Shown piece by piece: positions 12,859 through 50,459 of a DNA stretch of 64,000 bases. The first letter of the stretch is position 1. Each line of letters starts with the position of its first letter. Both the position numbers and the translations under genes were made by a program. Source of the stretch: Agromyces cerinus subsp. cerinus (GTDB taxonomy: Bacteria > Actinomycetota > Actinomycetes > Actinomycetales > Microbacteriaceae). The DNA is taken from the NCBI RefSeq assembly GCF_900142065.1, contig NZ_FSRJ01000002.1, forward strand, positions 558,001-622,000, in the 5' to 3' direction. The notes beneath the pieces were generated by a model. It saw nothing but the letters and a program-made list of their open reading frames with translations, was not told the origin of the DNA and ran no database searches.

Positions 12859-12954
12859 TGTTGTCGGGGAGACTCGAAAACCAAGCGACATTCGGTTTAT
12901 GATGATCCGGATGCCGCGCAGCGGCCCCATATCGAAGCATGAAGGAGTGCTGGC

Positions 12955-26288: not shown

Positions 26289-26324
26289 TGTCGGAGCCTC
26301 AGCCGCTGTCGGAGCCTCAGCCGC
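26289..26324. repeat. 18-bp direct duplication at the 3' end of the DUF4082 gene
   Basis: TGTCGGAGCCTCAGCCGC occurs twice in direct tandem (26289-26306 and 26307-26324). The second copy contains the stop codon of the minus-strand gene and the first repeats the same stop just beyond. It fills most of the 42-bp gap between the converging genes. Confidence 0.85.
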
Positions 26325-35246: not shown

Positions 35247-36391
35247 GCAGCATCCCGACGACGAGGGTGCCGTTCCTCGACCTCGCGGCGCAGCAGGCCG
35301 AGGTCGCCGATGAGGTGCTGCCCGTGTGGCGTGCGCAATTCGAGTCCGCGTCGTTCATCGGAGGTCCCGAGGTCGCCGCGTTCGAGCGCGACTACGCCGC
35401 GTACATCGGCGTCGAGCACTGCATCGGCGTCGGCAACGGCACGGACGCGGTCGAGCTGGCGCTGCGCGCCGTCGGCGTCGGGCGGGGTGACGAGGTGATC
35501 ATTCCCGTCAACACGTTCATCGCCACGGCCGAGGCGGCGACGCGCATCGGTGCGACGCCGGTGTTCGTCGACGTCGACGACGAGCACCTGCTCATCGACC
35601 CGTCCGCCGTGGAGGCTGCGATCACCCCGCGTACGCGTGCGATCGTTCCCGTGCACCTGTACGGGCAGACCGCGCCCGTCGAGGATCTCCAGCCCATCGC
35701 CGAGCGCCACGGCCTCGCCATCGTCGAGGACGCTGCGCAATCGCAGGGCGCCTCGTCGGCATTCGGACGCGCCGGCGCGCTCGGGCGGGTCGCGGCGACG
35801 AGCTTCTATCCGGGCAAGAACCTCGGTGCCGGGGGCGACGCCGGCGCCGTGCTGACGGACGACCCGGTCGTGGCGGACTTCGTGCGCAACTTCGCAGCCC
35901 ACGGCAGCCTGGTGAAGTACGTTCACGACCGCGCGGGGGCGAACTCGCGCCTCGACGCGGTTCAGGCGCCGTTGTTGCGCGCGAAGCTGCGCCGTCTCGA
36001 CGACTGGAATGCGGCGCGCCGCACCGCCGCGGCCCGATACGGCGAACTGCTCGCCGACGTGTCGGGTGTGCGTGCGCCGGTGGTCCGACCGGGAAACGAC
36101 GATGTCTGGCACCTCTACGTCGTGAGGGTCGACGAACGGGACCGCGTCTTCGCCGAGCTCGGCGCCTCAGGCGTCGGGTTCGCGATCCACTACCCCGCGC
36201 CATTGCACCTCACGGCCGCATACGCCGAACTCGGGTACCGCGAGGGCGAGTTCCCGGTGGCGGAGGCGGCTGCAGCTCGGATCCTCTCGCTGCCGATGTT
36301 CCCGCACCTCACTGCAGGGCAGCAGGAGATCGTGGTCGATGCGCTGAGCCGGGTCGTCGCACCCGGTCCCGCGATGGTCCGACGGCCATGA
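35243..36391 (+). CDS. DegT/DnrJ/EryC1 sugar aminotransferase 2, WbpE/FdtB-like
   Basis: A 382-residue PLP aminotransferase clearly different from the first one. The PLP lysine is Lys192 in TSFYPGKNLGAGGDAGA, and VEDAAQSQGA and YGQTAPVEDL are the family signature of 3-keto-sugar aminotransferases such as WbpE, WlbC and FdtB. With the dehydrogenase at 31368 and the WbpD-like acetyltransferase at 56387 it could complete a UDP-2,3-diacetamido-uronic-acid pathway. It has 4-bp overlaps at both ends. Confidence 0.9.
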   Translation: MSSIPTTRVPFLDLAAQQAEVADEVLPVWRAQFESASFIGGPEVAAFERDYAAYIGVEHCIGVGNGTDAVELALRAVGVGRGDEVIIPVNTFIATAEAATRIGATPVFVDVDDEHLLIDPSAVEAAITPRTRAIVPVHLYGQTAPVEDLQPIAERHGLAIVEDAAQSQGASSAFGRAGALGRVAATSFYPGKNLGAGGDAGAVLTDDPVVADFVRNFAAHGSLVKYVHDRAGANSRLDAVQAPLLRAKLRRLDDWNAARRTAAARYGELLADVSGVRAPVVRPGNDDVWHLYVVRVDERDRVFAELGASGVGFAIHYPAPLHLTAAYAELGYREGEFPVAEAAAARILSLPMFPHLTAGQQEIVVDALSRVVAPGPAMVRRP

Positions 36392-37677
36392 ACGCGCGTC
36401 CCCGCGTCCTCGTGCAGCTCGACAATCTCGAGCTCGGCGGGGCGCAGATCAACGCGGTCCAGCTGTCCGCCGCAGTGTCGGTGCACGGCTTCGACAGCCT
36501 CCTCATCGGCCCGGAGGACACCCTCCCCGTCGAAGGGCCGTCTCTGCTGGACATCGCACGGGACTACGGGGTGCAGCTCGAGGTGTATCGGCGACCGGCG
36601 CCGCTGATGGCCCACGCGCGCACGATCTCGAGGCTCGCCGACCGCTGGGAGGCCGACCTCGTGCACGCGTTCAGCTCCTCGGAGCGGGCCGCGTACTGGG
36701 GCGCGGGGCTGTTCGGGCGGCGCGCGCTGGTCCGTACGATCTACGAGAACTCGTACGACCCGAGGACGCATCCCTCCGTGCCGGTGGTGATCGGTACCGG
36801 CTATCTGCGGGACCAGTTGGCGGACCGCCCGGGCGGTGCGATCCTCATCAGCCCTCCGGTCGACACGTCGCGGGATGCATCCGGAGTCACCGATCGCGAA
36901 TCGTTCCGACGCAGGCTGGGCGTGGCCGGCGACGCGGTCGTGCTGGTCATCGTCAGCCGAGTCGCCACGGAGCTGAAGGGCCGGGGGATCGAGGACGCGA
37001 TCTGCGCGGTCGAATCCGCGAACGACCCTCGGATCCACCTGATCGTGGTAGGCACCGGTGATGCCGAGGAGCGGTTGCGCGGTCGGGCCGCAGCGGTCAA
37101 TGCGCGGCTCGGACGGTCCGCGATCGTGTTCTTCGGGCCGATGTCGGACCCCCGGCCCGTGTACGACGCAGCCGACGTCGTACTCGGAATGGGCAGCTCC
37201 GCTGCACGGGGGCTCGCCTTCGGCAAGCCGCTCATCGTGCTGGGCGAGCGCGGCTGGAGTGCGATCTTCCGTCCGCCCGACACCGAAGCCATCCTGCACA
37301 ACAACTTCTGGAGTCCGCAGAGCGTGACCGACGGGGCCGGCATGCTCCTGGGGCACATCCGCGAACTCGTCGACCACCCAGCTGACCGCGTCGCGCTCGG
37401 ACGAACGGCACGGCAGTTCGCAGAGGAGCACTTCGGACTGCCGACGATGGCGCTCCGCCTGGCGGGCGTCTACGAAGGCGCGTTGGAGTCGAGGTCGGCC
37501 TCGGCGTGGCTGGGGGACCTGCGCATGGAGGCTCGGATACTCGCCGCGAAGGCGGAGCGGACGGCCGGTCGGATGAGCGGCGGCCGGTTCTCGGGCGGGC
37601 GGGCCTCGGCATCCCTCGCGTGGAACCGGCACGGTCCGGACGGGACGCTGCAGATGGTGGAGCGGACCACGCGATGA
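36388..37677 (+). CDS. Glycosyltransferase, GT4-like
   Basis: A 429-residue GT-B fold protein. The N-terminal half begins PRVLVQLDNLELGGAQINAV, the acceptor-side signature of GT4 enzymes. The C-terminal half has LVIVSRVATELKGRGIEDAI and a nucleotide-sugar region with VLGMGSSAARGLAFGKPLIV, where the usual E-x7-E is degenerate. It probably adds one sugar to the lipid-linked repeat unit at the inner face of the membrane. Specificity is unknown. It overlaps both neighbours by 4 bp. Confidence 0.85.
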   Translation: MNARPRVLVQLDNLELGGAQINAVQLSAAVSVHGFDSLLIGPEDTLPVEGPSLLDIARDYGVQLEVYRRPAPLMAHARTISRLADRWEADLVHAFSSSERAAYWGAGLFGRRALVRTIYENSYDPRTHPSVPVVIGTGYLRDQLADRPGGAILISPPVDTSRDASGVTDRESFRRRLGVAGDAVVLVIVSRVATELKGRGIEDAICAVESANDPRIHLIVVGTGDAEERLRGRAAAVNARLGRSAIVFFGPMSDPRPVYDAADVVLGMGSSAARGLAFGKPLIVLGERGWSAIFRPPDTEAILHNNFWSPQSVTDGAGMLLGHIRELVDHPADRVALGRTARQFAEEHFGLPTMALRLAGVYEGALESRSASAWLGDLRMEARILAAKAERTAGRMSGGRFSGGRASASLAWNRHGPDGTLQMVERTTR

Positions 37678-38915
37678 ACGCCGAGGAGCCCCAGGGAAGT
37701 GCTGCTCGCCGAACCGGGGCGAGGGCGGCCAAGGCAGCGGGCATCCTTCGCGCCGGCGGCCCGCGTGCGCTCGCCCAGCGTCTGGCGCGGCACGCGTTCC
37801 ATCGACTGCACGATCCGAGCCTCGACGAGCCGCTGCTGGATGGCGATGTCGCCGATTCGACGCGGTTGAACCTGGCGACTCCCGAGCGTCGACCGTTGCG
37901 ATCGGAGCAGCTGCGCATCGGGTGGGTGACGACGCCGCCGCGGGCGGGCTCGGGGGGCCACACGACGCTGTTCCGGATGGTGGAGGCGGTCGAGCGCGCA
38001 GGTCATCGCTGCGAACTCTTCCTCTACGACCGGTACGGCGGCGACGTGCGCGAGCACGAGCGCGTGATCCGCGGCTGGTGGCCGAACATCGGGGCCGGCG
38101 TGCACGACGCGTCCGCCGGGATCTCGGGGGTCGACGCGAGCGTCGCCTCGTCGTGGGACACCGCGCACGTGCTCGCCCGACGCGGCACGGCACCGATGCG
38201 GCGGCTCTATTTCATCCAGGACTTCGAGCCGTTCTTCTACGCACGCGGGTCGATGTACGCCCTGGCAGAGGACACGTATCGGTTCGGGTTCCGCTGCATC
38301 GCGCTGGGCGAGATGGTGGCCGAACTCCTCCGGTCGGAGGTCGGCATCGCTCCGGACACGACCGAGTTCGGATGCGACACCTCGGTGTATCGACTGCTCC
38401 CCGGACGTGCACGCACCGGCGTGGTGGCGTACGCGCGCCCCGACGTGCCGCGTCGGGGCTACTGGCTCGCGAGGCTCGCGCTGGAGCAGTTCCACGGACT
38501 CCACCCCGAGATCGACATCCACATGTACGGAGCGGAGATCAACGGGTTGCCGTTCCCGGTCGCTCAGCACGGCCGGCTCACCCCGGCGGAACTCAACGAA
38601 CTCTACAACCGCAGCATCGCCGGGCTCGCGATGTCGTTCACGAACATCTCCCTGGTCGCCGAGGAGATGCTGGCGGCCGGTGCGATCCCCGTCGTGAACG
38701 ACTCCTCGCATTCGCGCGCGGATCTCGTGAACGGGCACGTCGCGTGGGCGAACCCGACGCCCCATGGGATCGCCGCGGCACTCGGCGATGTCGTGGCACG
38801 CGCGGATCGGGACGCGGCAGCGCGGAGCGCGTCGGAGTCGGTGCGTCCGTTCGGCTGGACGAAGGCGCAGTCCGATGTCGTGCGGATCCTCGAGGACGAG
38901 GTGTACGGATCATGA
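37674..38915 (+). CDS. Glycosyltransferase, WsaF/rhamnan-synthesis-like
   Basis: A 413-residue GT-B protein. RIGWVTTPPRAGSGGHTTLF and RRLYFIQDFEPFFYARGSMY match the WsaF family, whose founding member is a rhamnosyltransferase of S-layer glycan synthesis. YNRSIAGLAMSFTNISLVAE forms the donor-binding part. The start at 37674 gives a 4-bp overlap; the frame is open further upstream only inside the previous gene. A polymeric deoxyhexose such as rhamnose in the product is possible but inferred. Confidence 0.85.
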   Translation: MNAEEPQGSAARRTGARAAKAAGILRAGGPRALAQRLARHAFHRLHDPSLDEPLLDGDVADSTRLNLATPERRPLRSEQLRIGWVTTPPRAGSGGHTTLFRMVEAVERAGHRCELFLYDRYGGDVREHERVIRGWWPNIGAGVHDASAGISGVDASVASSWDTAHVLARRGTAPMRRLYFIQDFEPFFYARGSMYALAEDTYRFGFRCIALGEMVAELLRSEVGIAPDTTEFGCDTSVYRLLPGRARTGVVAYARPDVPRRGYWLARLALEQFHGLHPEIDIHMYGAEINGLPFPVAQHGRLTPAELNELYNRSIAGLAMSFTNISLVAEEMLAAGAIPVVNDSSHSRADLVNGHVAWANPTPHGIAAALGDVVARADRDAAARSASESVRPFGWTKAQSDVVRILEDEVYGS

Positions 38916-40429
38916 CACCCGCGGAGCGCGAACCCCGGACCCACGACTCTCCCATCGGGTCCGTCGGTCGACAGGCGGCATCGGGCGTGTTCTGGCTGAC
39001 GGTCCAGAAATGGGTGATCAGGCTCTTCGGCTTCGTCATGATCGCGATCCTCACCAGACTTCTGACGCCGGAGGACTTCGGTGTCGTGGCCGCCGCGTCG
39101 AGCGTGCTGCCGTTCTTCTACCTGCTCGCAGATCTGGGATTCTCCGCGTACATCGTGCAGGCCGACACCACCGACCGGCGCATGTTGAGCACGGGCTTCT
39201 GGTTCTCGTCCCTGGCCGGTCTCCTGCTGTGCGGCCTCGTCATCGGGTTCGCCCCGGTCTTCGGGTCCGTGTTCGGTTCCGACGACGTCGTTCCCGTCCT
39301 GCAGGTCATGGCCCTCGCAGTGGTGCTCGTCGCCGTCGCCTCGGTGCCGATCGCGCTGCTTCGGCGAGCCATGCGGTTCCGTGCGCTGGCAGTGCAGGGG
39401 GCCATCGCCGCGCTCGCGGCTCAGGTGGTCGCCGTCACCATGGCGTTCACCGGCTTCGGCGTCTGGGCCCTGGTCGGCCAGGTGCTGGTGACCGCGTTGG
39501 TGACCGCCGTGCTCGCGTGGGTCACGGCCGGCTGGCGTCCGGCGTTCGAGTTCTCGCGCACGGAGTTCACGACGATGGCCCGGTTCGGCAGTCAGGTGCT
39601 CGGCGTCGAGTTCGTCGGCATGTGCCGCGTGTTCGCCGAGACCGCCATCATCTCGGGTGTGCTCGGCATGGCGGCGCTGGGGTACCTGAACATCGCGCAG
39701 CGACTCGTCCAGATCGTGCAGGACCTGACCGGTTCGGCGCTCCTGCCGGTGTCATCGGTCGCCTTCTCCAAGATCCGCGATTCCGCCGAGCGTCTGCGGC
39801 GGGCGTACGTGCGCGCGCTGCGCATGACCTACGCCCTGATGACCCCTCCGCTCACGGTCGTGGCGGTGGCCTCGCCGCTGATCATCCCGATCGTCTTCGG
39901 CAAGGGATGGGCGGAGAGCGCGCCTGTCGCCCAGATCCTCGCACTCGCCGGGATCATCGTCGTCGGCGCGACGCTCGATCACGGGCTCTTCTACGGACTC
40001 GGCAAGCCCGGCAGGTGGTTCGTCTACGCCGTCATCGTCGATGCGTGCACCGTCGCCACGACGGCGATCACGGCCCGATGGGGACTCGAGGCCGTCGCGT
40101 TCGGATTCCTCGTGATCGCCGGTCTCGCCACGGTGAGCCGCTGGTTCCTGGTCGGCAGGCTGCTCGAGGCGTCGCCGAGGACGGCGGCGGGGCCGTTCGG
40201 CTTCCTCATCGCTTCGGTCGTGGTCGGCTTCGGCGCCGGGTGGGCGGCGCTCGCCCTGTCGGACGGGCTTCTCCCGATCGTCAGGATCCTCATCGTGGGC
40301 TTCGCGGTTCTGGCGGCGGACCTCGTGCTGGTCCGCGTGTTCGCCCGCTCCGTCTTCGACGACCTGGTCGAGGTGCTGTCCCGGTTCGGTCGGGGAAACC
40401 GGATCCGCTCTCCGCAGAAGGAGGGATGA
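38912..40429 (+). CDS. Wzx-like polysaccharide flippase (MOP superfamily)
   Basis: A 505-residue protein with about twelve to fourteen membrane helices and the polysaccharide-transport pattern: ASGVFWLTVQKWVIRLFGFV at the start and LTRLLTPEDFGVVAAASSV in the first loop. It should flip the undecaprenyl-linked repeat unit to the outer face, where the Wzy-like protein at 49140 would polymerise it. It overlaps the previous gene by 4 bp and ends 2 bp before the next start. Confidence 0.92.
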   Translation: MTPAEREPRTHDSPIGSVGRQAASGVFWLTVQKWVIRLFGFVMIAILTRLLTPEDFGVVAAASSVLPFFYLLADLGFSAYIVQADTTDRRMLSTGFWFSSLAGLLLCGLVIGFAPVFGSVFGSDDVVPVLQVMALAVVLVAVASVPIALLRRAMRFRALAVQGAIAALAAQVVAVTMAFTGFGVWALVGQVLVTALVTAVLAWVTAGWRPAFEFSRTEFTTMARFGSQVLGVEFVGMCRVFAETAIISGVLGMAALGYLNIAQRLVQIVQDLTGSALLPVSSVAFSKIRDSAERLRRAYVRALRMTYALMTPPLTVVAVASPLIIPIVFGKGWAESAPVAQILALAGIIVVGATLDHGLFYGLGKPGRWFVYAVIVDACTVATTAITARWGLEAVAFGFLVIAGLATVSRWFLVGRLLEASPRTAAGPFGFLIASVVVGFGAGWAALALSDGLLPIVRILIVGFAVLAADLVLVRVFARSVFDDLVEVLSRFGRGNRIRSPQKEG

Positions 40430-40431
40430 GG

Positions 40432-41796
40432 ATGACCGTTGCAGCCGCCCCTCCTCCGCACATCTTGATCATCGTGCAGAACCTGCCCGTCCCGCTGGAC
40501 CGGCGCGTGTGGCTGGAATGCCGGGCCCTGATCGCTCGCGGATACCGGGTCAGCGTGATCTGTCCGAAAGGACCGGGCGATCCCGCCCGCCAGCGCCTCG
40601 ACGGCGTGGACATCTACAAGTACCAGCCTGCGCCCGAGGCGGGCGGGCTGGCAGGGTTCGCGTGGGAGTTCGCCTACAGCTGGGTGCGGACTGCGTGGCT
40701 GTCGCTTCGAGTGCGACGCAATCGCCGGTTCGACATCATCCAGGCCTGCAATCCGCCGGACACGTTCTGGCTGCTCGCCCTGTTGTGGCGGCCGTTCGGG
40801 GTCAGGTTCGTGTTCGACCACCATGACCTGAATCCCGAGCTCTTCCTCTCCCGGTTCGGTGCGCCCACCGGCGGGCTCAAGGCCCTCGAGTACCGTGTGC
40901 TGCGATGGCTCGAGCGGCGCACGTTCCGTGCTGCCGATCGCGTCATCTCGACGAACGACTCGTACAAGGCGATCGCGGTCGAGCGGGGGCAGCGGCGCCC
41001 GACGGACGTGACCGTCGTCCGCAGCGGGCCGGACACCCGGCAGATGCGCCCGATCTACCCCGACGATCCGCGCCCCCTCGACGGGATCAACCTCGTGTAT
41101 CTCGGCATCATGGGGCCGCAGGACGGGGTCGACCAGGTGCTGCTCCTGGTCGACGAGCTCGTGCATCGGCGGGGACGGGCGAATGTGAGCGCGACGCTCC
41201 TCGGGTTCGGCGACTGCCTCGCGCAGCTCAGGGCGCAGGCGACGTCGCTCGGACTCGACGACCACGTGACCTTCACGGGGCGGGTCGACCGGGTGGCGAT
41301 CGCCGAGTACCTCAGCCGCGCCGACATCGGGGTCTGCCCCGACCTGAAGACCCCGCTCAACGACCTGTCCACGATGAACAAGACGATGGAGTACATGTCG
41401 TATGCACTGCCCGCGGTGTCGTTCGACCTGCGGGAGACACGCGTGTCCGGTGCCGACACGGTGCAGTACGTCGCATCGGGCGACCTCAGGGCATTGGCCG
41501 ACGTGGTCGAGGGGCTCATCGACGACCCCGAGCGGCGCGTCGAACTCGGAGCGAAGGCGCGGGCTCGCGTCGCCGCGGTCCTGGACTGGCGCCCTCAGGC
41601 GGCGGCGTACGTCTCCGTCTACGACGGTCTCTCCGGATTCGGCAACCTCGACTCGCGCACCGGGCGCGCGGACCGGGTCGCGGCCGTCCCCGAGCCCGAG
41701 CGCGCGCCGGACACCGACCCGCAGGGTCGGAGCTACGTCGACCTCGACGATCCCGAGGAGTTCCGGCGGTATCTCATCGAACGGAGAGCGCGATGA
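40432..41796 (+). CDS. Glycosyltransferase family 4
   Basis: A 454-residue GT4 protein. PHILIIVQNLPVPLDRRVWL and FVFDHHDLNPELFLSRFG are typical of the exopolysaccharide GT4 group near exosortase-type clusters. The donor site includes TFTGRVDRVAIAEYLSRADI and NKTMEYMSYALPAVSF. An acidic C-terminal tail (about 415-454) is an extra. The ATG at 40432 is chosen because GGAGG ends 7 nt upstream; an ATG at 40426 lies too close to it. Confidence 0.88.
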   Translation: MTVAAAPPPHILIIVQNLPVPLDRRVWLECRALIARGYRVSVICPKGPGDPARQRLDGVDIYKYQPAPEAGGLAGFAWEFAYSWVRTAWLSLRVRRNRRFDIIQACNPPDTFWLLALLWRPFGVRFVFDHHDLNPELFLSRFGAPTGGLKALEYRVLRWLERRTFRAADRVISTNDSYKAIAVERGQRRPTDVTVVRSGPDTRQMRPIYPDDPRPLDGINLVYLGIMGPQDGVDQVLLLVDELVHRRGRANVSATLLGFGDCLAQLRAQATSLGLDDHVTFTGRVDRVAIAEYLSRADIGVCPDLKTPLNDLSTMNKTMEYMSYALPAVSFDLRETRVSGADTVQYVASGDLRALADVVEGLIDDPERRVELGAKARARVAAVLDWRPQAAAYVSVYDGLSGFGNLDSRTGRADRVAAVPEPERAPDTDPQGRSYVDLDDPEEFRRYLIERRAR

Positions 41797-43385
41797 CTCC
41801 GGTCGGAACCGCCGTCCACGACCTGTTGGCGCACGCGGCCGCAGGCACTCCCGATGCGCCCGCGCTGAGCTACCGGAACCGCACGGTCTCCTACGCCGAG
41901 ACCTGGGGGAGCGTCTGCACCGTCGCCGATCATCTGCGAGCTCTCGGCCTCGGACGTGGCGATCGCGTGGCGATCTCCCTCGAGAAGCGGATCGAGACCG
42001 TCGTCGCGATCTTCGCCGCCTCGGCCGCCGACGGGCTGTTCGTCCCGATCAACCCCGTCCTCAAGCCGGCGCAGGTCGGTCACATCCTCGTCGACAGCGG
42101 TGCCCGAGTGCTCATCACGTCGACCGACCGACTCACCCAGCTGATCTCGATCCTGCCGGGCACCGCGATCGCCGACGTGATCCTGATCGGCGCCGCCGAC
42201 GCCGGCCGCACGGACGGCGCCGCCCCGGCCGTGCACTCCCGGGTGCACCGCTGGCGCGACGGGCAGCGTGCAGGCGGAGAGGCCGGCCGATCCGCTCGGA
42301 TCGATATCGATCCGGCCGCGATCCTCTACACCTCAGGCAGCACCGGCGGGCCCAAGGGCGTCGTCGTGAGTCATCGCAACCTGATCGCCGGCGCCGAGAG
42401 CGTGAGTTCCTACTTGGAGAACGACGGCGACGACGTCATCCTGAGCGCCCTGCCGCTGAGCTTCGATGCCGGTCTGAGCCAGGTCACGACGGCGTTCTCG
42501 GTCGGCGCCCACTGCGTGCTCATGAACTACCTGCTGCCCAGAGACGTTCCGAAGCTCTGCGAGCAGTACGGCGTCACCGGGCTGACGGGCGTTCCGCCGC
42601 TCTGGCAGCAGCTGATGGATGTCCCGTGGCCGAAGGAGACCGCGCACCGGCTCCGCTACTGGGCGAACACGGGCGGAAGGATGCCGCGCACGACGCTCGC
42701 CCGACTCCGCGAGACCTTCACCGAGGCGAAGCCCTACCTCATGTACGGACTCACGGAGGCGTTCCGTTCGACGTACCTCGACCCGGCTGAGGTGGATCGT
42801 CGCCCCGACTCGATCGGCAAAGCCATCCCGAATGCCGAGATCGTCGTGATGCGACCCGACGGCTCGCCGGCTTCCGTCGGCGAGGAAGGCGAGCTGGTGC
42901 ACCGCGGGGCCCTCGTCGGACTCGGCTACTGGAACGACCCCGTTCGGACGGCTGAACGGTTCCGCCCGGTCGACCATGCCGACCAGCCCTGGCGCGCCCT
43001 CGAAATGGCCGTGTGGTCGGGAGATACAGTGGTGGCCGATGAGGAGGGCTTCCTGTACTTCGTCGGTCGCGCGGACGAGATGATCAAGACCTCGGGATAT
43101 CGGGTGAGCCCGACCGAGATCGAGGAGGCCGCCTACGCCACCGGGCTCGTTCGCGACGCCGTCGCGTTCGGCGTCGATGATCCTGCCCTGGGCCAGCGGA
43201 TCGTCCTCGTCGCCACACCGGCGGGCACGGGACTCGACGGGGGTGCACCCGTGCTCATCGCGGCGCTCCGACCGCTCCTCCCGCTGTACATGGTCCCGTC
43301 CCGGGTGGAGATCCGCGCGGAGCTGCCTCGTTCCCCGAACGGCAAGTTCGACCGCAAGCTCATCAGGGCGGAGGTCGCCGGATGA
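41793..43385 (+). CDS. AMP-forming acyl/aminoacyl-ACP ligase
   Basis: A 530-residue adenylate-forming enzyme. A3 core ILYTSGSTGGPKGVV, A5 YLMYGLTEAF, A7/A8 WSGDTV and RADEMIKTSGYRVSPTEIE, and the A10 lysine in PNGKFDRK are all intact, so it should be active. The order ligase - PLP decarboxylase - ACP matches the 'exosortase A system-associated' ligase and decarboxylase families (TIGR03098/TIGR03099), although no exosortase is seen here. It probably activates an amino acid and loads it on the ACP encoded two genes downstream. Overlaps of 4 bp flank it. Confidence 0.9.
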   Translation: MTPVGTAVHDLLAHAAAGTPDAPALSYRNRTVSYAETWGSVCTVADHLRALGLGRGDRVAISLEKRIETVVAIFAASAADGLFVPINPVLKPAQVGHILVDSGARVLITSTDRLTQLISILPGTAIADVILIGAADAGRTDGAAPAVHSRVHRWRDGQRAGGEAGRSARIDIDPAAILYTSGSTGGPKGVVVSHRNLIAGAESVSSYLENDGDDVILSALPLSFDAGLSQVTTAFSVGAHCVLMNYLLPRDVPKLCEQYGVTGLTGVPPLWQQLMDVPWPKETAHRLRYWANTGGRMPRTTLARLRETFTEAKPYLMYGLTEAFRSTYLDPAEVDRRPDSIGKAIPNAEIVVMRPDGSPASVGEEGELVHRGALVGLGYWNDPVRTAERFRPVDHADQPWRALEMAVWSGDTVVADEEGFLYFVGRADEMIKTSGYRVSPTEIEEAAYATGLVRDAVAFGVDDPALGQRIVLVATPAGTGLDGGAPVLIAALRPLLPLYMVPSRVEIRAELPRSPNGKFDRKLIRAEVAG

Positions 43386-44608
43386 AACCGAACGAGCACA
43401 TCGCCGAATTCGGCACGATCGACGCCGAGCTCGGGGTCGGCGGAATGCCGCTCAGCAGGCTCGCGGCCCGCGTCGGCTCGACGCCGTTCTTCGCCTACGA
43501 CCGCACGCTGCTGGACCGGCGCGTCGATCGATTGCGCGCAGCGCTTCCGGCGCGGATCGAACTCAGCTACGCCATGAAGGCCAACCCGATGCCGGCGATC
43601 GTCCAGCATCTGGCGCGCCGGGTCGATCGGATCGACGTGGCGTCGTCGGCAGAGATGCTGACGGCGCTCGACACGACGCTCCCGGCGGACCGGGTCAGCT
43701 TCGCGGGGCCCGGCAAGGCACCGGCCGAGATCCGCCGCGCGGTCGCCTCCGGGATCATCGTGGAGATCGAGTCCGCCACCGAGTTCCGCCGGGTCGTCGC
43801 CGCCGGCGATGAGCTCGGCATCGTGCCGACCGTCGCCGTCCGGGTCAATCCGGACTTCGCAGTCAAGGGTTCGGGGATGCGGATGGGCGGAGGCCCGCAG
43901 CAGTTCGGCATCGACGCCGAGCAGGTCCCCGCAGTGCTGCACGACTTCGCAGCGGCCGGGGTGGACATCCTCGGATTCCATGTCTTCGCCGGTTCGCAGA
44001 ACCTGAACGCCGCGGTCATCACCGAGGCCCAGCGACGCACCGTCGACCTCGTGACCGAGCTCGCGGAGCATCTGCCGGCACCGCTCCGGTATCTGAACCT
44101 CGGTGGAGGGTTCGGCATCCCGTACGTCGATCGGGATCGCCCACTCGATCTCGACGAGGTTGCAGCAGGGCTGCACGAGCTGGTCGACGGCGTCATCGCG
44201 GAACGGCTCCCGGATGCCACGCCGGTGATCGAGCTCGGGCGCTACCTCGTCGGGGAGTGCGGTGTGTACGTCACCCGGGTGCTCGACCGCAAGGTGTCGC
44301 GCGGCAGGACCTACCTCGTGGTCGACGGCGGGATGCACCATCAGCTCGCTGCATCCGGGAACTTCGGGCAGGCGATCCGTCGCAACTACCCCGTCGCGGT
44401 CGGCAACCGCGCCGACGCCGCAGCCGGGGGCGGCGTCACGGTGGTGGGGTGCCTCTGCACGCCGCTCGACCTGCTGGGCGACGACGTCGAGCTGCCTCCC
44501 GCGGAGATCGACGATCTCATCGTGATCTTCCAGGCCGGGGCGTACGGCCTGACCGCGAGCCCGACCGCATTCCTGGGGCATCCGGCTCCGGTGGAGGTCC
44601 TCGTCTGA
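43382..44608 (+). CDS. PLP-dependent (LysA-fold) decarboxylase, carrier-linked type
   Basis: A 408-residue fold-type III decarboxylase. PLP Lys66 is in LSYAMKANPMP, the phosphate-binding part is LNLGGGFGIPY, and the active-site Cys region is VVGCLCTPLDLLG. It belongs to the ornithine/diaminopimelate decarboxylase superfamily but sits between an adenylating ligase and an ACP. The known parallel is BtrK of butirosin synthesis, which decarboxylates glutamyl-S-ACP to a GABA thioester. A carrier-bound amino acid is therefore the likely substrate (inference). Its start overlaps the ligase stop by 4 bp. Confidence 0.88.
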   Translation: MKPNEHIAEFGTIDAELGVGGMPLSRLAARVGSTPFFAYDRTLLDRRVDRLRAALPARIELSYAMKANPMPAIVQHLARRVDRIDVASSAEMLTALDTTLPADRVSFAGPGKAPAEIRRAVASGIIVEIESATEFRRVVAAGDELGIVPTVAVRVNPDFAVKGSGMRMGGGPQQFGIDAEQVPAVLHDFAAAGVDILGFHVFAGSQNLNAAVITEAQRRTVDLVTELAEHLPAPLRYLNLGGGFGIPYVDRDRPLDLDEVAAGLHELVDGVIAERLPDATPVIELGRYLVGECGVYVTRVLDRKVSRGRTYLVVDGGMHHQLAASGNFGQAIRRNYPVAVGNRADAAAGGGVTVVGCLCTPLDLLGDDVELPPAEIDDLIVIFQAGAYGLTASPTAFLGHPAPVEVLV

Positions 44609-44628
44609 TCAGGTGACAGGGAGCAAGC

Positions 44629-44886
44629 ATGGATGACACGTTCGACGCCGTTCGCGAGGTGCTGGTCGAGACGCTCGAGTTGCAGCAGCGCCCCGACGAC
44701 CTGCACGCCGACACCGCACTCTTCGGTTCGCTGCCGGAACTGGATTCGTTCGGAGTGGTGCAGCTCGTGGCCGCGCTCGAGCAACGATTCGGCATCACCG
44801 TCGACGACGACGAGTTCGGGGCCGAGCTCTTCGAGACGGTGGGCACCTTGACCGAGTTCGTCGACGCGAAGCTCGCGGCCGCGTGA
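44629..44886 (+). CDS. Acyl carrier protein
   Basis: An 85-residue acidic four-helix carrier. The phosphopantetheine site is Ser40 in PELDSFGVVQL. Helix boundaries and length fit stand-alone ACP/PCP proteins. GACAGGGAG upstream is the ribosome-binding site, and a gap of 20 bp separates it from the decarboxylase. It ends the long operon. It should hold the activated and decarboxylated group for transfer, possibly to a glycan. Confidence 0.92.
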   Translation: MDDTFDAVREVLVETLELQQRPDDLHADTALFGSLPELDSFGVVQLVAALEQRFGITVDDDEFGAELFETVGTLTEFVDAKLAAA

Positions 44887-44949: not shown

Positions 44950-45813
44950 CTACCAGGGGACCAGGGTCAGTTCGCTGTACAGGTAGTCGACGGTGTCGGC
45001 TTCGAGCCGGCTCCCGCGGAACATCTTCGGTCGAGGCCGCGGGAGTTCGATTCCGGGTCGCGGTGCGAACCCGAGAACCCGCCGTTCGGCAAGGGTGGCG
45101 ACGAGCCCGCGCCGCAGCAGGTGGGCGCCGACGCTCGGCCAGGCGGCTTCGAGACATCCGGGATCTCCGCCCGCGTACAGCGGCGAGGCGAACGTGCGGA
45201 CCCCCTTCCTGGCGTCCCGCCGGTACATGAGGTACCCGTGCTCATCGGCGTGCGTCACGAGCAGGTGCTGGGCCGCGGGCGCGCGCCGATGGTCCCGGTA
45301 GATCTCGGCGTCCCGCCCGCGGAGCACCCGGTGGATCGCCTCCGGATCGCTCGTGACGCGGGTTCCGCGCCGCGGGACCCACGGCAGGTTCGGTACGAGC
45401 TTCGTGCTGGTGTCCAGTCGCCGGAATCCGAGGCGTTCGTTCAGCGCGACCACGTTCCCGCTGGGGGAGAGGTCGGTGAACTCGTAGCCCTGCTGCGAGA
45501 GGAGCGCTCGCACGAGCCGGAGACCGTGCACGCGGTGATCCTCCAGCACGCAGAACGCCGCCAGATTGCAGACCCGCACCTGCTCGTCACCGACGTCTCG
45601 CAGCGAGTACACGGCGGCGTAGACGCCGACGACGCCCTCGTCGCCCACGAGTTGGAACCCGTGATTGGGGGCCGAGTCCTCCCACGGAGGCGCGACGACG
45701 CTCGCCCAGGCCTCGGCCGAGACGTTCCGGTTGAGGTGCTGATGGAGGAACCTGCCGACCGGCTCGAGATCGGCGGCCAGGATGGGACGAACTTCGACGG
45801 CCGATCCTGCCAT
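44950..45813 (-). CDS. GNAT-fold N-acyltransferase
   Basis: A 287-residue protein on the strand opposite to the cluster. The N-terminal GNAT domain (about 5-150) shows VEVRPILAADLEPVGRFL, the AcCoA-region sequence DHRVHGLRLVRALLSQQGY and NERLGFRRLD. The second half (about 150-287) is a less conserved companion domain. Proteins of this shape occur in polysaccharide clusters. It could move an acyl group from CoA or from the neighbouring ACP to a sugar amine, but this is inference. TAGGCT lies 7 nt before the ATG, so the mRNA is leaderless. Confidence 0.82.
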   Translation of the reverse strand: MAGSAVEVRPILAADLEPVGRFLHQHLNRNVSAEAWASVVAPPWEDSAPNHGFQLVGDEGVVGVYAAVYSLRDVGDEQVRVCNLAAFCVLEDHRVHGLRLVRALLSQQGYEFTDLSPSGNVVALNERLGFRRLDTSTKLVPNLPWVPRRGTRVTSDPEAIHRVLRGRDAEIYRDHRRAPAAQHLLVTHADEHGYLMYRRDARKGVRTFASPLYAGGDPGCLEAAWPSVGAHLLRRGLVATLAERRVLGFAPRPGIELPRPRPKMFRGSRLEADTVDYLYSELTLVPW

Positions 45814-45927: not shown

Positions 45928-45975
45928 ATGTCACCTCGGGTCGAGGGCGGCAACGGCGATCGGGGCGCACGATGA
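45928..45975 (+). CDS. 15-residue leader/coupling peptide upstream of GT2
   Basis: The frame encodes MSPRVEGGNGDRGAR. GGGGAGG (45914-45920) lies 7 nt upstream, the best ribosome-binding site in this intergenic region. Its TGA overlaps the ATG of the glycosyltransferase (ATGA at 45972-45975), which itself has no good Shine-Dalgarno. Translation of the glycosyltransferase is therefore probably coupled to this mini-gene. It is too short to assign a function. Confidence 0.5.
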   Translation: MSPRVEGGNGDRGAR

Positions 45976-46847
45976 CCAGCGTGGTGATCGCGGCGCACAA
46001 CGAGGAGCACGTGATCGGTGCGTGCCTCGACGCACTGCTCGGCCGGCAGGGACCGGAGCCGATCGGCATCGTGGTGAGCGCCAACGGCTGCACCGACCGC
46101 ACCGCGGCGGCGGCCACCCGGCCCGGTGTGACGGTCATCGATCGAGCCGAGGCGGGCAAGACCGCCGCACTCAATGCCGCCGACGAGGTGGCGACCGGAT
46201 TCCCGAGGATCTACCTGGATGCCGACATCGTCGTGCCGCCGGGCGGCATCGCCGCGATCCTGGCGTGCTTCGACGCGTCACCCCGGTCGCTGGCGGTCGT
46301 GCCCCGGCGGCGCCTGAACACCGCGGGCAGACCGTGGCCGGTCCGAGCGTACTTCTCGATCAACGAGCGGATGTCGCCCTTCCGGAACGGGCTGTTCGGT
46401 CGCGGCATGATCGCCCTGTCCGAACAGGGTCGTGCACGGTTCGACGTCTTCCCGGCGGTGATCGCCGACGACCTGTTCGTCGATTCGCAGTTCTCGGACG
46501 CCGAGAAGGCGGAGGCGAGCGAGATCGAGGTCGTCGTCGAGGCTCCGTTCACGACCTCGGACCTCCTGCGTCGCCTGGTTCGCGTGCGCCGCGGCAACCG
46601 GCAGTTGCGCGCTTCGGCCGAGGCGGGGCGGATCGCCGCGCAGGTGCGACCGGTCGACCACTGGGGGTGGCTCCGCGATGCAGTGGTGCCCGAACCCCGT
46701 CTGGCATCGGCCGCCATCCCGTACCTGATCATCACCGTGATGGCGGCCCTGCTCGCCCGCCGCCCGGTGAAGGCCGGCCGCGAGTGGGGCCGGGATGAGA
46801 GCACCCGCGGACCTCGTCGGCCGGGAGAGGAGGTCGGCAGCACATGA
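45972..46847 (+). CDS. Glycosyltransferase family 2
   Basis: A 291-residue GT-A enzyme. SVVIAAHNEEHVIGACLDAL is the GT2 N-terminus, and the metal-binding DxD is in YLDADIVVPPGG. A C-terminal hydrophobic segment (about 255-275, IPYLIITVMAALLA) suggests membrane association. It starts inside the stop of the leader peptide and overlaps the deacetylase gene by 4 bp, so the two act together. The sugar is unknown. Confidence 0.88.
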   Translation: MTSVVIAAHNEEHVIGACLDALLGRQGPEPIGIVVSANGCTDRTAAAATRPGVTVIDRAEAGKTAALNAADEVATGFPRIYLDADIVVPPGGIAAILACFDASPRSLAVVPRRRLNTAGRPWPVRAYFSINERMSPFRNGLFGRGMIALSEQGRARFDVFPAVIADDLFVDSQFSDAEKAEASEIEVVVEAPFTTSDLLRRLVRVRRGNRQLRASAEAGRIAAQVRPVDHWGWLRDAVVPEPRLASAAIPYLIITVMAALLARRPVKAGREWGRDESTRGPRRPGEEVGST

Positions 46848-47497
46848 CCGTCAATCTCTGCTTCCACGGGGTCGGAACCTGCGTTCGAGAGCGTGAACCG
46901 GGTGAGGCCGGGTACTGGGTGACCGACGAGCTCTTCCTCCGCATCCTCGACGAGGTCGGCTCTCATCCCCAGGTCCGGTTGAGCTTCGATGACGGCAACC
47001 GATCCGATGTCGCGGTGGCGCTTCCCGCGCTCCAGGAGCGCGGGCTGCGCGCCACCTTCTTCGTCCTCGCCGGTCGCCTGGGCGATCCGGTGAGTCTGAG
47101 CGACTCGGAGCTGCGGCTGTTGAGAGACGCGGGAATGGGGGTCGGCAGCCACGGCTGGTCTCATGTCCAGTGGCGCGGGATGGGTCCCGACGACGAACGG
47201 CGAGAACTCGTGGAGGCCCGCACCGCCCTCGCGGAGGCCAGCCGCGGCCCGATCGACGAGGCCGCACTCCCGCTCGGCCGCTACGATCGTCAGCTGCTGG
47301 CGCGGCTTCGTCGGTACGGCTACCGCGCCGTGTACACGAGCGATCGCTTCCCGGCGCGCCCCACGGCCTGGCTCCAGGCCCGCTACAGCGTGACCGCGGG
47401 CGACACCGTCGAGACGGTGCGCTCCATGGTCACCCGTCCGCACCGGTTCGCTGAGACCCGCAACCGCGCCGCGTGCCTCGCGAAGCGCATCCGATGA
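46844..47497 (+). CDS. NodB-like polysaccharide deacetylase
   Basis: A 217-residue protein with the NodB metal site: RLSFDDGNRSDV provides the first Asp pair and GVGSHGWSHVQW the two His ligands. No signal peptide is seen, so it may act on cytoplasmic lipid-linked sugars. It is slightly shorter than usual, and the late catalytic region is degenerate (PLGRYDRQLLARLRRYGY). It would remove N-acetyl groups from amino sugars. It is co-translated with the GT2 gene. Confidence 0.82.
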   Translation: MTVNLCFHGVGTCVREREPGEAGYWVTDELFLRILDEVGSHPQVRLSFDDGNRSDVAVALPALQERGLRATFFVLAGRLGDPVSLSDSELRLLRDAGMGVGSHGWSHVQWRGMGPDDERRELVEARTALAEASRGPIDEAALPLGRYDRQLLARLRRYGYRAVYTSDRFPARPTAWLQARYSVTAGDTVETVRSMVTRPHRFAETRNRAACLAKRIR

Positions 47498-47512: not shown

Positions 47513-48214
47513 TCACTGCACCGCACCGACGCCGGCGACGCCCGTGGTGGCTGGTTCGGGGCCGTTCGCGCCCGCAGGCCCGACGCGTCGACGCGCGCGG
47601 TGCTCGACCAGGAGGACGCAGGCGGTGGTCGCGCTGACGCCGAGCACGCCGATGACGGCCAGCGCCCTGATCGAGCTGCCGTTGAGGTCGCGGACCACGC
47701 CCGACTCCGGAACCACGGACACGGTGATGTCGTTCACCGGATCGACGCCCGCATCGCGCTGCAGCGAGGCCAGTTCGAGCTCGATGCGGTCGACCAGTTC
47801 GTGCTGCTTCGCGAGCGCCGCCTCGCGGTCACGCGCAACGACCTCCACGATCAGCGACTGGCTCGAGAAGTTCGACGCCCACTGTCCCCCCGTGTCGGGG
47901 AGGCGCACCGCCCAGCCGTCGCGAACGCCCAGCCCGACGAGGGTGACGCTCGGGTCGGCGAACTTCGTGACCTTGCCCGGCCCGGAGATCGCCTTCGAGA
48001 CGACGCCCGCGGTGATGATGAGGTCTTCCGAGGTCGTCTTCAGTGAGTTCGGATTGAGCTCGCTCGTCGGGGCGAGGAACACCACCTCGGTGCGGGCGTA
48101 GGAGACGCCGTCGTCGCTCACCGCGAGATAGCCGAGCGCGACGGTGCAGATGGCTCCCGCCACGACGATCGGCCAGCGGCGGATCATCGAGCGGATGAGT
48201 TCTGGCAGTGTCAC
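47513..48214 (-). CDS. Wzz-like chain-length determinant protein A
   Basis: A 233-residue protein with two membrane helices (about 15-35 and 180-200) flanking a periplasm-type loop, as in Wzz/capsular polysaccharide co-polymerases. No tyrosine-kinase domain is attached. GTG 48214 is preferred (VTLPELIRSM...), with GGGAAG upstream; the frame is open to 48349 but across the promoter region. It is divergent from a second Wzz-like gene. It should control polymer length or export together with the polymerase at 49140. Confidence 0.8.
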   Translation of the reverse strand: MTLPELIRSMIRRWPIVVAGAICTVALGYLAVSDDGVSYARTEVVFLAPTSELNPNSLKTTSEDLIITAGVVSKAISGPGKVTKFADPSVTLVGLGVRDGWAVRLPDTGGQWASNFSSQSLIVEVVARDREAALAKQHELVDRIELELASLQRDAGVDPVNDITVSVVPESGVVRDLNGSSIRALAVIGVLGVSATTACVLLVEHRARRRVGPAGANGPEPATTGVAGVGAVQ

Positions 48215-48307
48215 GAATGCTTCCCGCGGGATCTCTTCGGTGGGTGGGTTTTGGAAGGTTGCAGAAACATGATATAGGGGGGAGGGGTCGCGCCGGCCTT
48301 GGGCGGG

Positions 48308-48313
48308 TACACT
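48308..48313 (+). promoter_or_regulatory. -10 element of the second Wzz-like gene
   Basis: TACACT ends 8 nt before the ATG at 48322 and no Shine-Dalgarno is present, which predicts a leaderless mRNA. A run of G residues (48277-48282) lies at the position of the G block seen at other island promoters, but without the C block. Confidence 0.5.
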
Positions 48314-48321
48314 CTGTCCGT

Positions 48322-49143
48322 ATGGTGATGACCGACTTCCTTCGCGCAATGGGGCGACGATGGTACGTGCTGATCGTCGGTCTCATCGCCACGGCAGGGC
48401 TGGGATATGCCGCGGTCGCCATGACTCCGCCCGAGTACACGGCGCGAGGGCTGGTGCTGCTGCTGCCCTCTCAAGACGTCGTGGGCAAGGGCGGCAACCC
48501 GTTCCTCGCGATGGGCGACCTGGGGCTGCCGGCCTCGATCCTGGCAGCGTACTTCCAGAGTTCCTCGGTCCAGGCGCAGGTCGCCGAACTGTCTCCCGAG
48601 GCGAAGTACTCGGTCGCCATCGAAGCCTCCACGCGAGGTCCTCTGATGTCGATCGACGTCACGGACGTGACGGCTGACGGTGCGCTCACCACGCTCGACT
48701 ACCTGGCCGGCGCGATCCCGTCGAATCTGGAACGACTGCAGCAGGAGGTCGGAGCGCCGTCGGCGTCGACGGTGACCTCGATGCCGTTGACCATGGACTC
48801 GGAGGCGACGGAGCACACCGACGGCACGATCCGCATGATGATCGTCGCGGTCGCCGTCGGACTCCTCGGCACGGTGACCCTGACCTTCACGATCGATCGC
48901 CTGATCCTCAGGCGGGCGCAACGGCGAAGGGACGACGCGCTGCAGTCCGCCGACGCGGCCGACGTCACCGAGGGCGATGAGGGCGCGGATGCCGCTGCGG
49001 GGGCTGAGGGCGCGGAGCCCGCCGACGGCACCGAGGTCGTCGACGGTGACGACGTCGTCGAAGATCAGCCGTCCGTCGTGGTGCGGGAGCCCGATGCCGA
49101 TCTCGTGCTGCAAGTCCCGGAGAATCTCGAGCAGTCTCGGTGA
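48322..49143 (+). CDS. Wzz-like chain-length determinant protein B
   Basis: A 273-residue protein with two membrane helices (about 13-33 and 172-192) around an extracytoplasmic domain. The long cytoplasmic tail (about 200-273) is very acidic with many Ala, Asp and Glu residues. It resembles Wzz-type co-polymerases and, like its divergent neighbour, has no kinase domain. Alternative ATG at 48328 is two codons later. The polymerase gene follows with a GTGA overlap. Confidence 0.82.
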   Translation: MVMTDFLRAMGRRWYVLIVGLIATAGLGYAAVAMTPPEYTARGLVLLLPSQDVVGKGGNPFLAMGDLGLPASILAAYFQSSSVQAQVAELSPEAKYSVAIEASTRGPLMSIDVTDVTADGALTTLDYLAGAIPSNLERLQQEVGAPSASTVTSMPLTMDSEATEHTDGTIRMMIVAVAVGLLGTVTLTFTIDRLILRRAQRRRDDALQSADAADVTEGDEGADAAAGAEGAEPADGTEVVDGDDVVEDQPSVVVREPDADLVLQVPENLEQSR

Positions 49144-50459
49144 CATCCCGAGTCGGCATCGAGCGCACGACGCGTACGAGCGGAGATGCCGTCACGTGGC
49201 TCAGCGTCTACGTGCTGCTGCTCTTCTTCATCCCGTCGAAGCTCGTCATCGGAGCCCTCGGCAGCGCCGGCGCCCCTTCGATGATCTTCGGCCTCGTGAG
49301 CCTCGTGCTGTGGTTCCTGTTCCGGCTCTGGTCCCTCCTCCGCTTCGACCACCCCCGACGACGCGCTCCAGCGCACCGCGAGCCGATCCGCACCGCCCTC
49401 TGGGTCTTCCTCTTCTGCATCGGGGTCACGTACGCGCTGGCCATGTCGCGCCCGATCAGTCCCGATGAGATCAGTCCCGCCGACGTCGCGCTGCTCGCCG
49501 CCGCGTCATGGACCGGAACCCTGCTGTTCGCCCATGACGGAATTCCCAGCCGTGATCGACTCGAGACGTTCCTCTGGCGCCTGGCCGTCTGCGGTGCGCT
49601 CCTCGCAGGTCTCGGCATCGTCCAGGTGCTCACCGGGCAGGCATGGGTCGACCGGATCTCCATCCCCGGCCTGACCGTGACGGAGGTGCCCACGCTGTTC
49701 ACCCGCGGCTCCTTCCCCCGCCCGTCGGGCACGGCGGTGCATCCGATCGAATACGGGGTGCTCGTGTCGATGCTCCTCCCGCTCGCGCTGTACGTGGCGT
49801 TCAACCAGGTCGAGCGCGGCCGCATCCGCTGGTTTCCCGCCCTGGCGCTCGCGGCCGTCATCCCGCTGACGTCGTCGCGGTCGGCCTACATCGGGGCCGT
49901 CATCGGCTTGGCGATCGTCATGCTCGGGTGGCCCAAGATGCGCCGACGGGTGATCGCCCTGCTCGCCGTGGCAGGTGTCGCGGCGATGTCGGTCGTGACA
50001 CCCAACCTGCTCAACTCCATCGTCAACCTGTTCGTGGGGGCTCCCGAGGATCCGAGCGTGGGATCGCGCACCGGGAGCTTCGACGTGGCGTTCCAGTTCA
50101 TCGCCGAACTCCCGCTGTTCGGCCGCGGGTTGGGTACGTTCCTGCCCAAGTACCGGATCTTCGACAACCAGTACTTGGTCCTCCTCGTCACGATCGGCAT
50201 CATCGGCACCGTGGTGTTCGTCGCGCTCGGCGTCGTGGCGGCGATCACGATGTTGCGCCTCCGACGCGCCAGTTCGGATGATCGGACACGGGATCTGGCG
50301 CTGACCCTCGTCGCTTCGGTCTCCGTCGGGTTCGTCAGCCTCTCCTTCTTCGACGCTTTCGCGTTCCCGATGACGATGGGCGCGCTGTTCCTGCTGCTCG
50401 GCGTGTGCGGGGCGCTGCACCGCCTCGAACGCGATGGCGGCACCCTTGGGATCGGTTGA
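49140..50459 (+). CDS. O-antigen ligase/Wzy-like polymerase
   Basis: A 439-residue polytopic membrane protein with about ten to twelve helices. A large extracytoplasmic region (about 175-200, SFPRPSGTAVHPIEYGVLVS) and the downstream segment IPLTSSRSAYIGAVIGL match the Wzy_C/O-antigen ligase family; Arg residues in these loops are the usual catalytic candidates. It starts with GTG overlapping the previous stop. It should polymerise flipped repeat units under control of the Wzz-like proteins. Confidence 0.87.
   Translation: MTSRVGIERTTRTSGDAVTWLSVYVLLLFFIPSKLVIGALGSAGAPSMIFGLVSLVLWFLFRLWSLLRFDHPRRRAPAHREPIRTALWVFLFCIGVTYALAMSRPISPDEISPADVALLAAASWTGTLLFAHDGIPSRDRLETFLWRLAVCGALLAGLGIVQVLTGQAWVDRISIPGLTVTEVPTLFTRGSFPRPSGTAVHPIEYGVLVSMLLPLALYVAFNQVERGRIRWFPALALAAVIPLTSSRSAYIGAVIGLAIVMLGWPKMRRRVIALLAVAGVAAMSVVTPNLLNSIVNLFVGAPEDPSVGSRTGSFDVAFQFIAELPLFGRGLGTFLPKYRIFDNQYLVLLVTIGIIGTVVFVALGVVAAITMLRLRRASSDDRTRDLALTLVASVSVGFVSLSFFDAFAFPMTMGALFLLLGVCGALHRLERDGGTLGIG

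Follow-up and report, generated by a model that had tools for sequence, protein, structure and literature searches.

A ligase, a BtrK-like decarboxylase, an acyl carrier protein and a tandem-GNAT protein as a candidate exosortase-free glycan-acylation cassette in Agromyces cerinus

Among the genes of a polysaccharide locus in Agromyces cerinus subsp. cerinus are those for an AMP ligase, a BtrK-like pyridoxal phosphate (PLP) decarboxylase, an acyl carrier protein (ACP) and a predicted tandem-GNAT acyltransferase (Table 1). They lie side by side in a 64,000-nucleotide stretch of contig NZ_FSRJ01000002.1 (assembly GCF_900142065.1, positions 558,001 to 622,000), referred to here as the window. The first three, the triad, had been described in a first-pass annotation as the last genes of an operon, and they do close it, since the plus-strand genes from 31368 to 44886 show a 4-bp overlap at each junction, with the exception of the ACP gene, which follows a gap of 20 bp. 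These overlaps were computed with the first listed start codon per junction, and the open reading frames were chosen by codon-position GC and homology, with no trained gene caller. The fourth gene is convergent with the operon, its stop lying 63 bp past that of the ACP gene. This candidate transferase of an unnamed family adjoins the triad just outside the coordinates of the first-pass annotation, from which both it and the existence of two triad lineages were missing.

The ligase scores 713 bits with TIGR03098 and the decarboxylase 559.6 bits with TIGR03099; as both exceed the curated cut-offs (592.35 and 478.45), they are true family members by score, which goes beyond the mere likeness claimed earlier. 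Both families are curated as hypothetical equivalogs, and their names state no substrate. The decarboxylase has BtrK as its best PDB match (4e-75), chains named diaminopimelate decarboxylase following at 3e-46 or weaker, and the PLP lysine K66 and the motif C359-T-P-x-D363 are kept in all 81 aligned decarboxylases. An ordinary LysA was rejected on its TIGR01048 score (233.9 bits, cut-off 297.9) and on its CTPLD sequence in place of CExxD. Glutamate following the active-site cysteine (CExxD) is the motif of LysA diaminopimelate decarboxylase, and the second, LysA-like copy in the same genome (L002) reads CESGD. One scan of viral contigs with the decarboxylase as query gave no relative. In the ACP, D39-S40 is kept in 72/72 aligned sequences; its best PDB match is 2LKI (8e-18), and with the DltC model the ACP search gave 26 bits, below the cut-off of 68.

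The pocket segment of the ligase (residues 205–345) finds VinN as its best PDB match. Three positions in it are conserved, D225 in 71 of 72 aligned ligases (the remaining one has a gap) and T293 and R325 in all 72. In the alignment, chain positions 246 and 347 of VinN stand opposite D225 and R325, and we take them to be D230 and R331 (an offset of 16); the letters aligned with Asp225, Thr293 and Arg325 would then be D230, S299 and R331. Position 230 of VinN presumably binds the amino group and position 331 the second carboxylate of the substrate. Judged by this alignment, the ligase retains the putative amino- and carboxyl-binding positions of the VinN type.

The fourth protein matches no Pfam and no NCBIfam family at E<=1, and a profile built from 60 of its relatives retrieved no PDB sequence at the same threshold. 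A Pfam GNAT model is matched weakly by 11 of the 60 relatives (best 7.8e-4). The AlphaFold2 model is of high confidence (pLDDT 93.7, pTM 0.89); Foldseek placed it with Eis and other tandem GNATs (best 4.4e-9), and re-examination of these matches put N-myristoyltransferases (NMT) at the top, with Z 15.1 and 4.3 A over 266 of 287 residues. Identity to the listed structural matches is 7–16%. On its predicted structure, the protein is a tandem GNAT acyltransferase with two lobes in one chain. Its C-terminus is fixed, the distance from Tyr279 to the end being nine residues in 59 of 60 members and the last residue Trp in 58. Passages in PMC7048800 and PMC8556138 describe the use of the C-terminal carboxylate in catalysis by NMT and Eis; a passage in PMC4964394 describes this as unique to NMT. 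By analogy with these enzymes, which the protein resembles in fold and in its fixed end, the terminal carboxylate is a possible catalytic base here; the bacterial glycan locus and a probably ACP-bound donor set it apart from them. Two other assignments were rejected. The GNAT is no NodA by sequence, since the NodA family model is among those not matched. The NeuD/PglD-type acetyltransferase of the operon is less likely to be the transferase: its homologues occur in 32 of 87 loci (the 80 named loci introduced below and seven from a genome search), those of the GNAT in 60 of the 80.

Linkage was studied in the best 80 of 169 decarboxylase relatives from a scan of genome contigs, so that weaker relatives, including the strict decarboxylases of exosortase-bearing Pseudomonadota, hardly enter these counts. 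The tblastn thresholds, chosen after a first table had been viewed, were 300 bits for the ligase, 40 for the ACP, 120 for the GNAT, 100 for deacetylase and DegT and 80 for glycosyltransferases. All four genes are present in 58 of the 80 loci; the others hold the triad alone (11), GNAT, decarboxylase and ACP (2), ligase and decarboxylase (2) or the decarboxylase alone (7). GNAT gene and triad are separated by less than 250 bp in 43 of the 58, with the same-strand order GNAT-ligase-decarboxylase-ACP in 32 and the convergent arrangement of the window in 11. Among the protein clusters found around the triad, only those of ligase and decarboxylase are more frequent than that of the GNAT (57 loci); annotation of the clusters covered 10 scanned representatives, five of which gave no match. 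Pairwise distances among GNATs correlate with those among ligases, decarboxylases and ACPs (r 0.82, 0.79 and 0.75; maxima of 500 permutations 0.11, 0.09 and 0.17), and over all four proteins r is 0.75–0.86 against permutation maxima of 0.09–0.17, values to which the shared ancestry of the hosts contributes.

Samples of the order (297 genomes), the phylum (296) and the Pseudomonadota (398) were searched with profiles. In the order sample the five genomes with a strict decarboxylase (above the TIGR03099 cut-off) are also the five with the GNAT (E<=1e-20); in the phylum sample the decarboxylase was found in two and the GNAT in three, the two being common to both. Only one of seven sampled genomes of the genus, the source of the window, has decarboxylase or GNAT, a pattern suggestive of acquisition by transfer or of loss.

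The first-pass annotation had seen no exosortase, and had named an exosortase with PEP-CTERM substrates elsewhere in the genome as the finding that would explain the genes otherwise. PF09721 detected none in the Agromyces genome (100% complete), nor did TIGR02602 in eight genomes including this one; no search was made with a PEP-CTERM model. In the Pseudomonadota, strict TIGR03099 occurs in 30 of 398 genomes, and 27 of these 30 have an exosortase. The GNAT is found in three of the 30, linked to the decarboxylase in the exosortase-free G335 and G740 and unlinked in the exosortase-bearing G735, so that two of the three exosortase-free genomes have a linked GNAT; the third, G1029, gave no GNAT match, and its decarboxylase falls among the exosortase-linked rows of the tree described next. 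In 15 genomes with a weaker decarboxylase, an exosortase occurs in five and a GNAT relative in five, both together in G647.

A tree of 73 decarboxylases contains a branch (support 98/97) that separates 30 GNAT-linked rows, from two phyla, from 27 exosortase-linked ones; the rows were chosen rather than taken from all loci, include LysA-like and other distant sequences, and 39 of the 73 lie outside the set of 30 Pseudomonadota and the outgroup. Rhizobial GNAT-linked decarboxylases sit among the actinobacterial ones. There are two triad lineages, one mostly with exosortase and one with GNAT. In an exosortase-type locus (L174), hydrolases 1 and 2 exceed their cut-offs, and a further protein matches TIGR03108 best, though below the cut-off of that model. 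Hydrolase 2 (TIGR03101) exceeds its cut-off in seven of 27 exosortase-positive strict genomes versus none of 15 GNAT-cassette genomes; this is a broad hydrolase model, with matches at E<=0.001 in 41 of 44 genomes. In the 49 locus genomes PF09721 matches at E<=0.001 in six and over cut-off in three (two of the 41 with a GNAT locus), in each case partially and with at most 30.5 bits.

Two further groups of decarboxylases were observed. A sister lineage in Streptomyces, Amycolatopsis, Saccharothrix and relatives (L063, L069, L074, L080, L090, L095, L096) is not flanked by homologues of the window's glycosyltransferases; one of its members, L074, adjoins a polyketide synthase and a SARP regulator, and its loci are candidate antibiotic clusters. 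Weaker decarboxylases (L111–L122; 410–424 bits, below cut-off) occur in 12 of the 296 phylum genomes, all of one family (f34), with no GNAT match at E<=1e-20 in these genomes; the three included in the tree form a separate deep branch.

The glycan locus around the triad is listed in Table 1. The first-pass annotation had spoken of a Wzx/Wzy operon, of which the Wzx half stands: the flippase gene lies within the operon, and the Wzy-type gene lies outside it, as the locus extends past the operon, with further glycosyltransferases downstream of the Wzy_C gene as far as 55001. The deacetylase contains FDDG and HxxxH motifs, and no signal peptide was evident on inspection of the sequence.

Table 1. 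Genes of the operon and of the adjoining glycan locus (positions in the window; family assignments are predictions)
Feature	Position	Strand	Basis
Gfo/Idh/MocA sugar-nucleotide oxidoreductase, operon gene 1	31368..32465	+	PF01408 9e-29; nearest NCBIfam NF040723 (UDP-GlcNAc 3-dehydrogenase), 154 bits, below cut-off
SDR epimerase/dehydratase	32462..33457	+	PF01370 7e-49
DegT/DnrJ aminotransferase 1	33454..34614	+	PF01041 6e-105
NeuD/PglD-type sugar acetyltransferase	34611..35246	+	TIGR03570 183.4 bits, cut-off 160.8
DegT/DnrJ aminotransferase 2	35243..36391	+	PF01041 5e-111
Glycosyltransferase (weak)	36388..37677	+	PF00534 3e-5, under Pfam cut-off
WsaF-like glycosyltransferase	37674..38915	+	PF22772 2e-9
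Wzx-type flippase	38912..40429	+	PF13440 2e-66
GT4 glycosyltransferase	40426..41796	+	PF13439/PF13692
AMP ligase, 530 aa, predicted amino-dicarboxylate loading onto ACP	41793..43385	+	TIGR03098
BtrK-like PLP decarboxylase, 408 aa	43382..44608	+	TIGR03099
Acyl carrier protein, phosphopantetheine site Ser40	44629..44886	+	PF00550 38.6 bits, 1e-9
Tandem-GNAT (NMT/Eis-like) acyltransferase, 287 aa, fourth member of set	44950..45813	-	predicted structure, linkage
GT2 glycosyltransferase	45972..46847	+	PF00535 3e-15; divergent from GNAT gene; 4-bp overlap with deacetylase start
Polysaccharide (CE4) deacetylase	46844..47497	+	PF01522 7e-22
Wzz-like protein (weak)	48208..49143	+	PF02706 18.6 bits, below cut-off 25.5
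Wzy/O-antigen-ligase-type protein (Wzy_C)	49140..50459	+	PF04932 2e-16

Homologues of these glycan genes accompany the GNAT elsewhere. A deacetylase homologue lies within the stretch in 42 of 60 GNAT loci versus 0 of 20 others, a DegT homologue in 24/60 versus 3/20, one or the other in 51/60 versus 3/20, and homologues of the window's glycosyltransferases in 56/60 versus 8/20. Since the GNAT-negative group includes cut contigs (seven of the 20 records, L021, L022, L037, L038, L049, L073 and L087, are short or cut) and secondary-metabolism loci, its deacetylase count of zero is not a clean control.

Taken together, we somewhat favour the view that the triad and the tandem GNAT form an exosortase-free glycan-acylation cassette, in which an amino acid of the aspartate or glutamate type is converted into an omega-amino-acyl-ACP and passed to an amino sugar. 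The ligase, to go by its VinN-aligned residues, would adenylate the side-chain carboxyl of an amino-dicarboxylic acid (aspartate, glutamate or something closely related) and load the acid onto the ACP. The decarboxylase would then, as BtrK and VinO suggest, strip the alpha-carboxyl on the carrier to give beta-alanyl-ACP, gamma-aminobutyryl (GABA)-ACP or similar. The carrier product is probably such an omega-amino-acyl-ACP because the decarboxylase is BtrK-like, the ligase pocket is VinN-like and VinN/VinO provide a precedent for loading followed by decarboxylation. From its fold, linkage and C-terminus, the GNAT is predicted to move the omega-amino-acyl group to the free amine of an amino sugar in a cytoplasmic, probably lipid-linked glycan, its invariant terminal carboxylate possibly acting as the base as in NMT and Eis. 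The acceptor amine may be provided by the linked deacetylase or, in some loci, by the action of a DegT aminotransferase, and the Wzx and Wzy-type proteins would then export and polymerise the modified unit. Each transfer would put a group ending in a free amine in the place of an acetamide, so that the polymer would gain positive charge. The amino acid, its decarboxylation on the carrier, the ACP as GNAT donor, the amino-sugar acceptor, the cytoplasmic order and the charge are all steps that we infer.

Attachment of an aminoacyl group to the glycan had been suggested by the first-pass annotation. Its plausibility has grown, since the triad is accompanied by a conserved tandem GNAT and often also by a deacetylase; the transfer itself is still read from these associations. 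A wider version of the proposal is tentative and, in our judgement, falls a little short of an even chance. It would hold that an undescribed glycan pathway is common to Actinomycetota and Rhizobiales, in which beta-alanyl or GABA groups are transferred by an NMT-fold GNAT with a carboxylate base to an amine unmasked by the deacetylase, giving a zwitterionic polysaccharide, and that the exosortase-A triads are a sister system with the same donor and another transferase.

The closest parallel is the butirosin system, in which BtrJ, BtrK and BtrI act on L-glutamyl-ACP to give GABA-ACP. The comparison was already drawn in the first-pass annotation and has been strengthened by the BtrK match of the decarboxylase. 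Common to both are a ligase, a BtrK-type decarboxylase with the CTPxD motif and a free-standing ACP, but the butirosin genes belong to an aminoglycoside cluster, while those described here belong to a glycan operon and are joined by a tandem GNAT and, often, by a deacetylase. The best reading of the cassette by this analogy is carrier chemistry of the BtrJ/BtrK/BtrI type applied to a glycan. In the Dlt system an AMP ligase and a carrier protein serve to bring D-alanine, an amine-bearing acyl group, onto teichoic acid, an envelope polymer; the likeness lies in ligase, carrier, type of group and type of target, and the difference in the additional decarboxylation step and the GNAT (no search for a DltB homologue was made).

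In vicenistatin biosynthesis, passages in PMC11284099 describe how VinN puts 3-methylaspartate on the ACP and VinO then decarboxylates it on the carrier. The ligase pocket segment resembles VinN of this group of systems (vicenistatin VinN-VinL-VinO and fluvirucin FlvN, with 3-methylaspartate or aspartate on the ACP, later decarboxylated), whereas no polyketide synthase match was found among the window genes scanned; no search for VinM or VinK homologues was made. The exosortase-A-associated ligase and decarboxylase are defined by the same curated cut-offs that both proteins exceed, but here an exosortase was not found, a GNAT is present and the decarboxylase lies on the opposite side of the tree. 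Finally, the order of events proposed resembles that of rhizobial NodC, NodB and NodA, in which, according to passages in PMC5080398, a glycosyltransferase and a deacetylase are followed by N-acyltransfer from an acyl carrier protein. The cassette would follow this NodB/NodA-like logic, carrier protein included, with a short amino-acyl group replacing the fatty acid; the match of the window deacetylase to the NodB model is weak (20.5 bits).

Several observations weigh against the acylation cassette. The specificity argument for the ligase depends on the alignment of three positions and on the roles presumed for them in VinN. Neither a deacetylase nor a DegT homologue lies in the stretch of nine of the 60 GNAT loci, and in 15 of the 58 four-gene loci the GNAT is further away from the triad, up to 8 kb. 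Triads exist without this GNAT in exosortase genomes, only one of 27 (G735) having it, unlinked, and the carrier-bound product can therefore have another fate. The division between exosortase and GNAT is not clean either, since the exosortase-positive G647 has a weak GNAT relative in one stretch with ligase, decarboxylase (442 bits, below the TIGR03099 cut-off) and ACP (L193). Two Nocardioides rows (L064, L078) stand inside the GNAT branch of the tree with no GNAT nearby. In L088 and L010, GNAT, decarboxylase and ACP occur with no ligase found nearby (a 20-kb stretch for L010, which belongs to G289, one of the five order genomes with decarboxylase and GNAT); the decarboxylases of these two loci are each other's closest kin in the tree, so that another enzyme may have taken over the loading, or the ligase gene may have shifted elsewhere. 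Among 11 stretches scanned for more distant GNAT relatives, ten hold one (L186 does not), and seven of these ten (L185, L187–L192) gave no ACP match at E<=1e-4. The idea that the GNAT is always coupled to an ACP was not upheld.

The triad might instead make an amino-acyl-ACP for a small molecule or a peptide-like secondary metabolite, with the glycan genes as bystanders. BtrK serves an antibiotic. So does VinO, according to passages in PMC11284099, and the sister decarboxylase lineage, with its polyketide synthase neighbour at L074 and its lack of window-type glycosyltransferases, fits such a role. This reading is unlikely for the window, where the triad closes a chain of nine overlapping glycan genes, and it sits poorly with the frequency of window-type glycosyltransferases in GNAT loci as compared with the others. 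It is likewise improbable that the GNAT is an acetyl-CoA-dependent N-acetyltransferase which re-acetylates the sugar while the triad supplies something else. Its structural neighbours Eis and NMT are acyl-CoA enzymes, and the distant-relative stretches with no ACP match agree with this; yet the subfamily co-occurs and co-diverges with ligase, decarboxylase and ACP, and relatives stand in same-strand runs with other ACPs (L155, and L184 with FkbH-like and MaoC/SDR proteins).

The loci just named deserve a brief description. L155, a 9.5-kb contig of G374, carries a GNAT directly before an ACP, together with an asparagine synthase and a TIGR03101 hydrolase 2 over cut-off, combining traits of both partner types in a genome with no TIGR03099 decarboxylase at E<=1e-100. 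At L184:9087-13602 (G735) the genes for the GNAT relative, a MaoC/SDR fusion, an FkbH-like protein and an ACP form a same-strand run, the decarboxylase of this genome being elsewhere; perhaps another acyl-ACP serves the same transferase family.

A third alternative would have the GNAT acylate the free amine of the amino-acyl-ACP, as an extension or protection in the manner of VinM, with another enzyme attaching the product to the glycan. Vicenistatin offers the precedent, the amine of a carrier-bound beta-amino acid being acylated before transfer, by VinM with alanine (passages in PMC11284099). We regard this as distinctly improbable: the linkage to a deacetylase would go unexplained, and no other transferase as frequent as the GNAT was recognised among the clusters, not all of which were annotated. 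That the genes are the relic of an exosortase-A/PEP-CTERM system which lost its exosortase, as the names of TIGR03098 and TIGR03099 and the exosortases of strict Pseudomonadota might suggest, is very improbable given intact catalytic residues, GNAT-linked decarboxylases on one branch spanning two phyla, and PF09721 matches in locus genomes that are only partial and low-scoring.

Under the glycan-acylation reading, the presence of a candidate transferase in a cassette free of exosortase means that four small proteins would suffice for a direct test of function. If the reading is true, amine-bearing acyl groups would be added to the known means by which surface polymers of bacteria are charged, a role would be found for an acyltransferase family of NMT-like fold that has no name, and the product of the same genes in exosortase-A exopolysaccharide loci would be predicted. 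In the open-licence PubMed Central literature nothing was found under "exosortase A system-associated", nor anything joining polysaccharide, beta-alanyl, amino sugar and acyl carrier protein.

Some features of individual loci were also recorded. Mycolicibacterium iranicum (L047) has two GNAT copies (7475–8380 and 12508–13356), one on each side of the triad. A locus on a contig labelled Stenotrophomonas maltophilia P13 (L039) looks actinobacterial, with a decarboxylase 79% identical to that of the window, and is perhaps an assembly contamination. Just after the ACP, 11 loci encode on the same strand a protein of about 600 amino acids (e.g. L018:11484-13286); it matches a macrolactam cyclase model weakly (43.5 bits) and may resemble asparagine synthases, which would recall the amidotransferase found in exosortase-A loci. 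In the window itself, the gene next to the operon (26317–31068, minus strand) specifies a protein of 1583 amino acids with an N,N-dimethylformamidase-beta-like domain, bacterial Ig domains and DUF4082 repeats.

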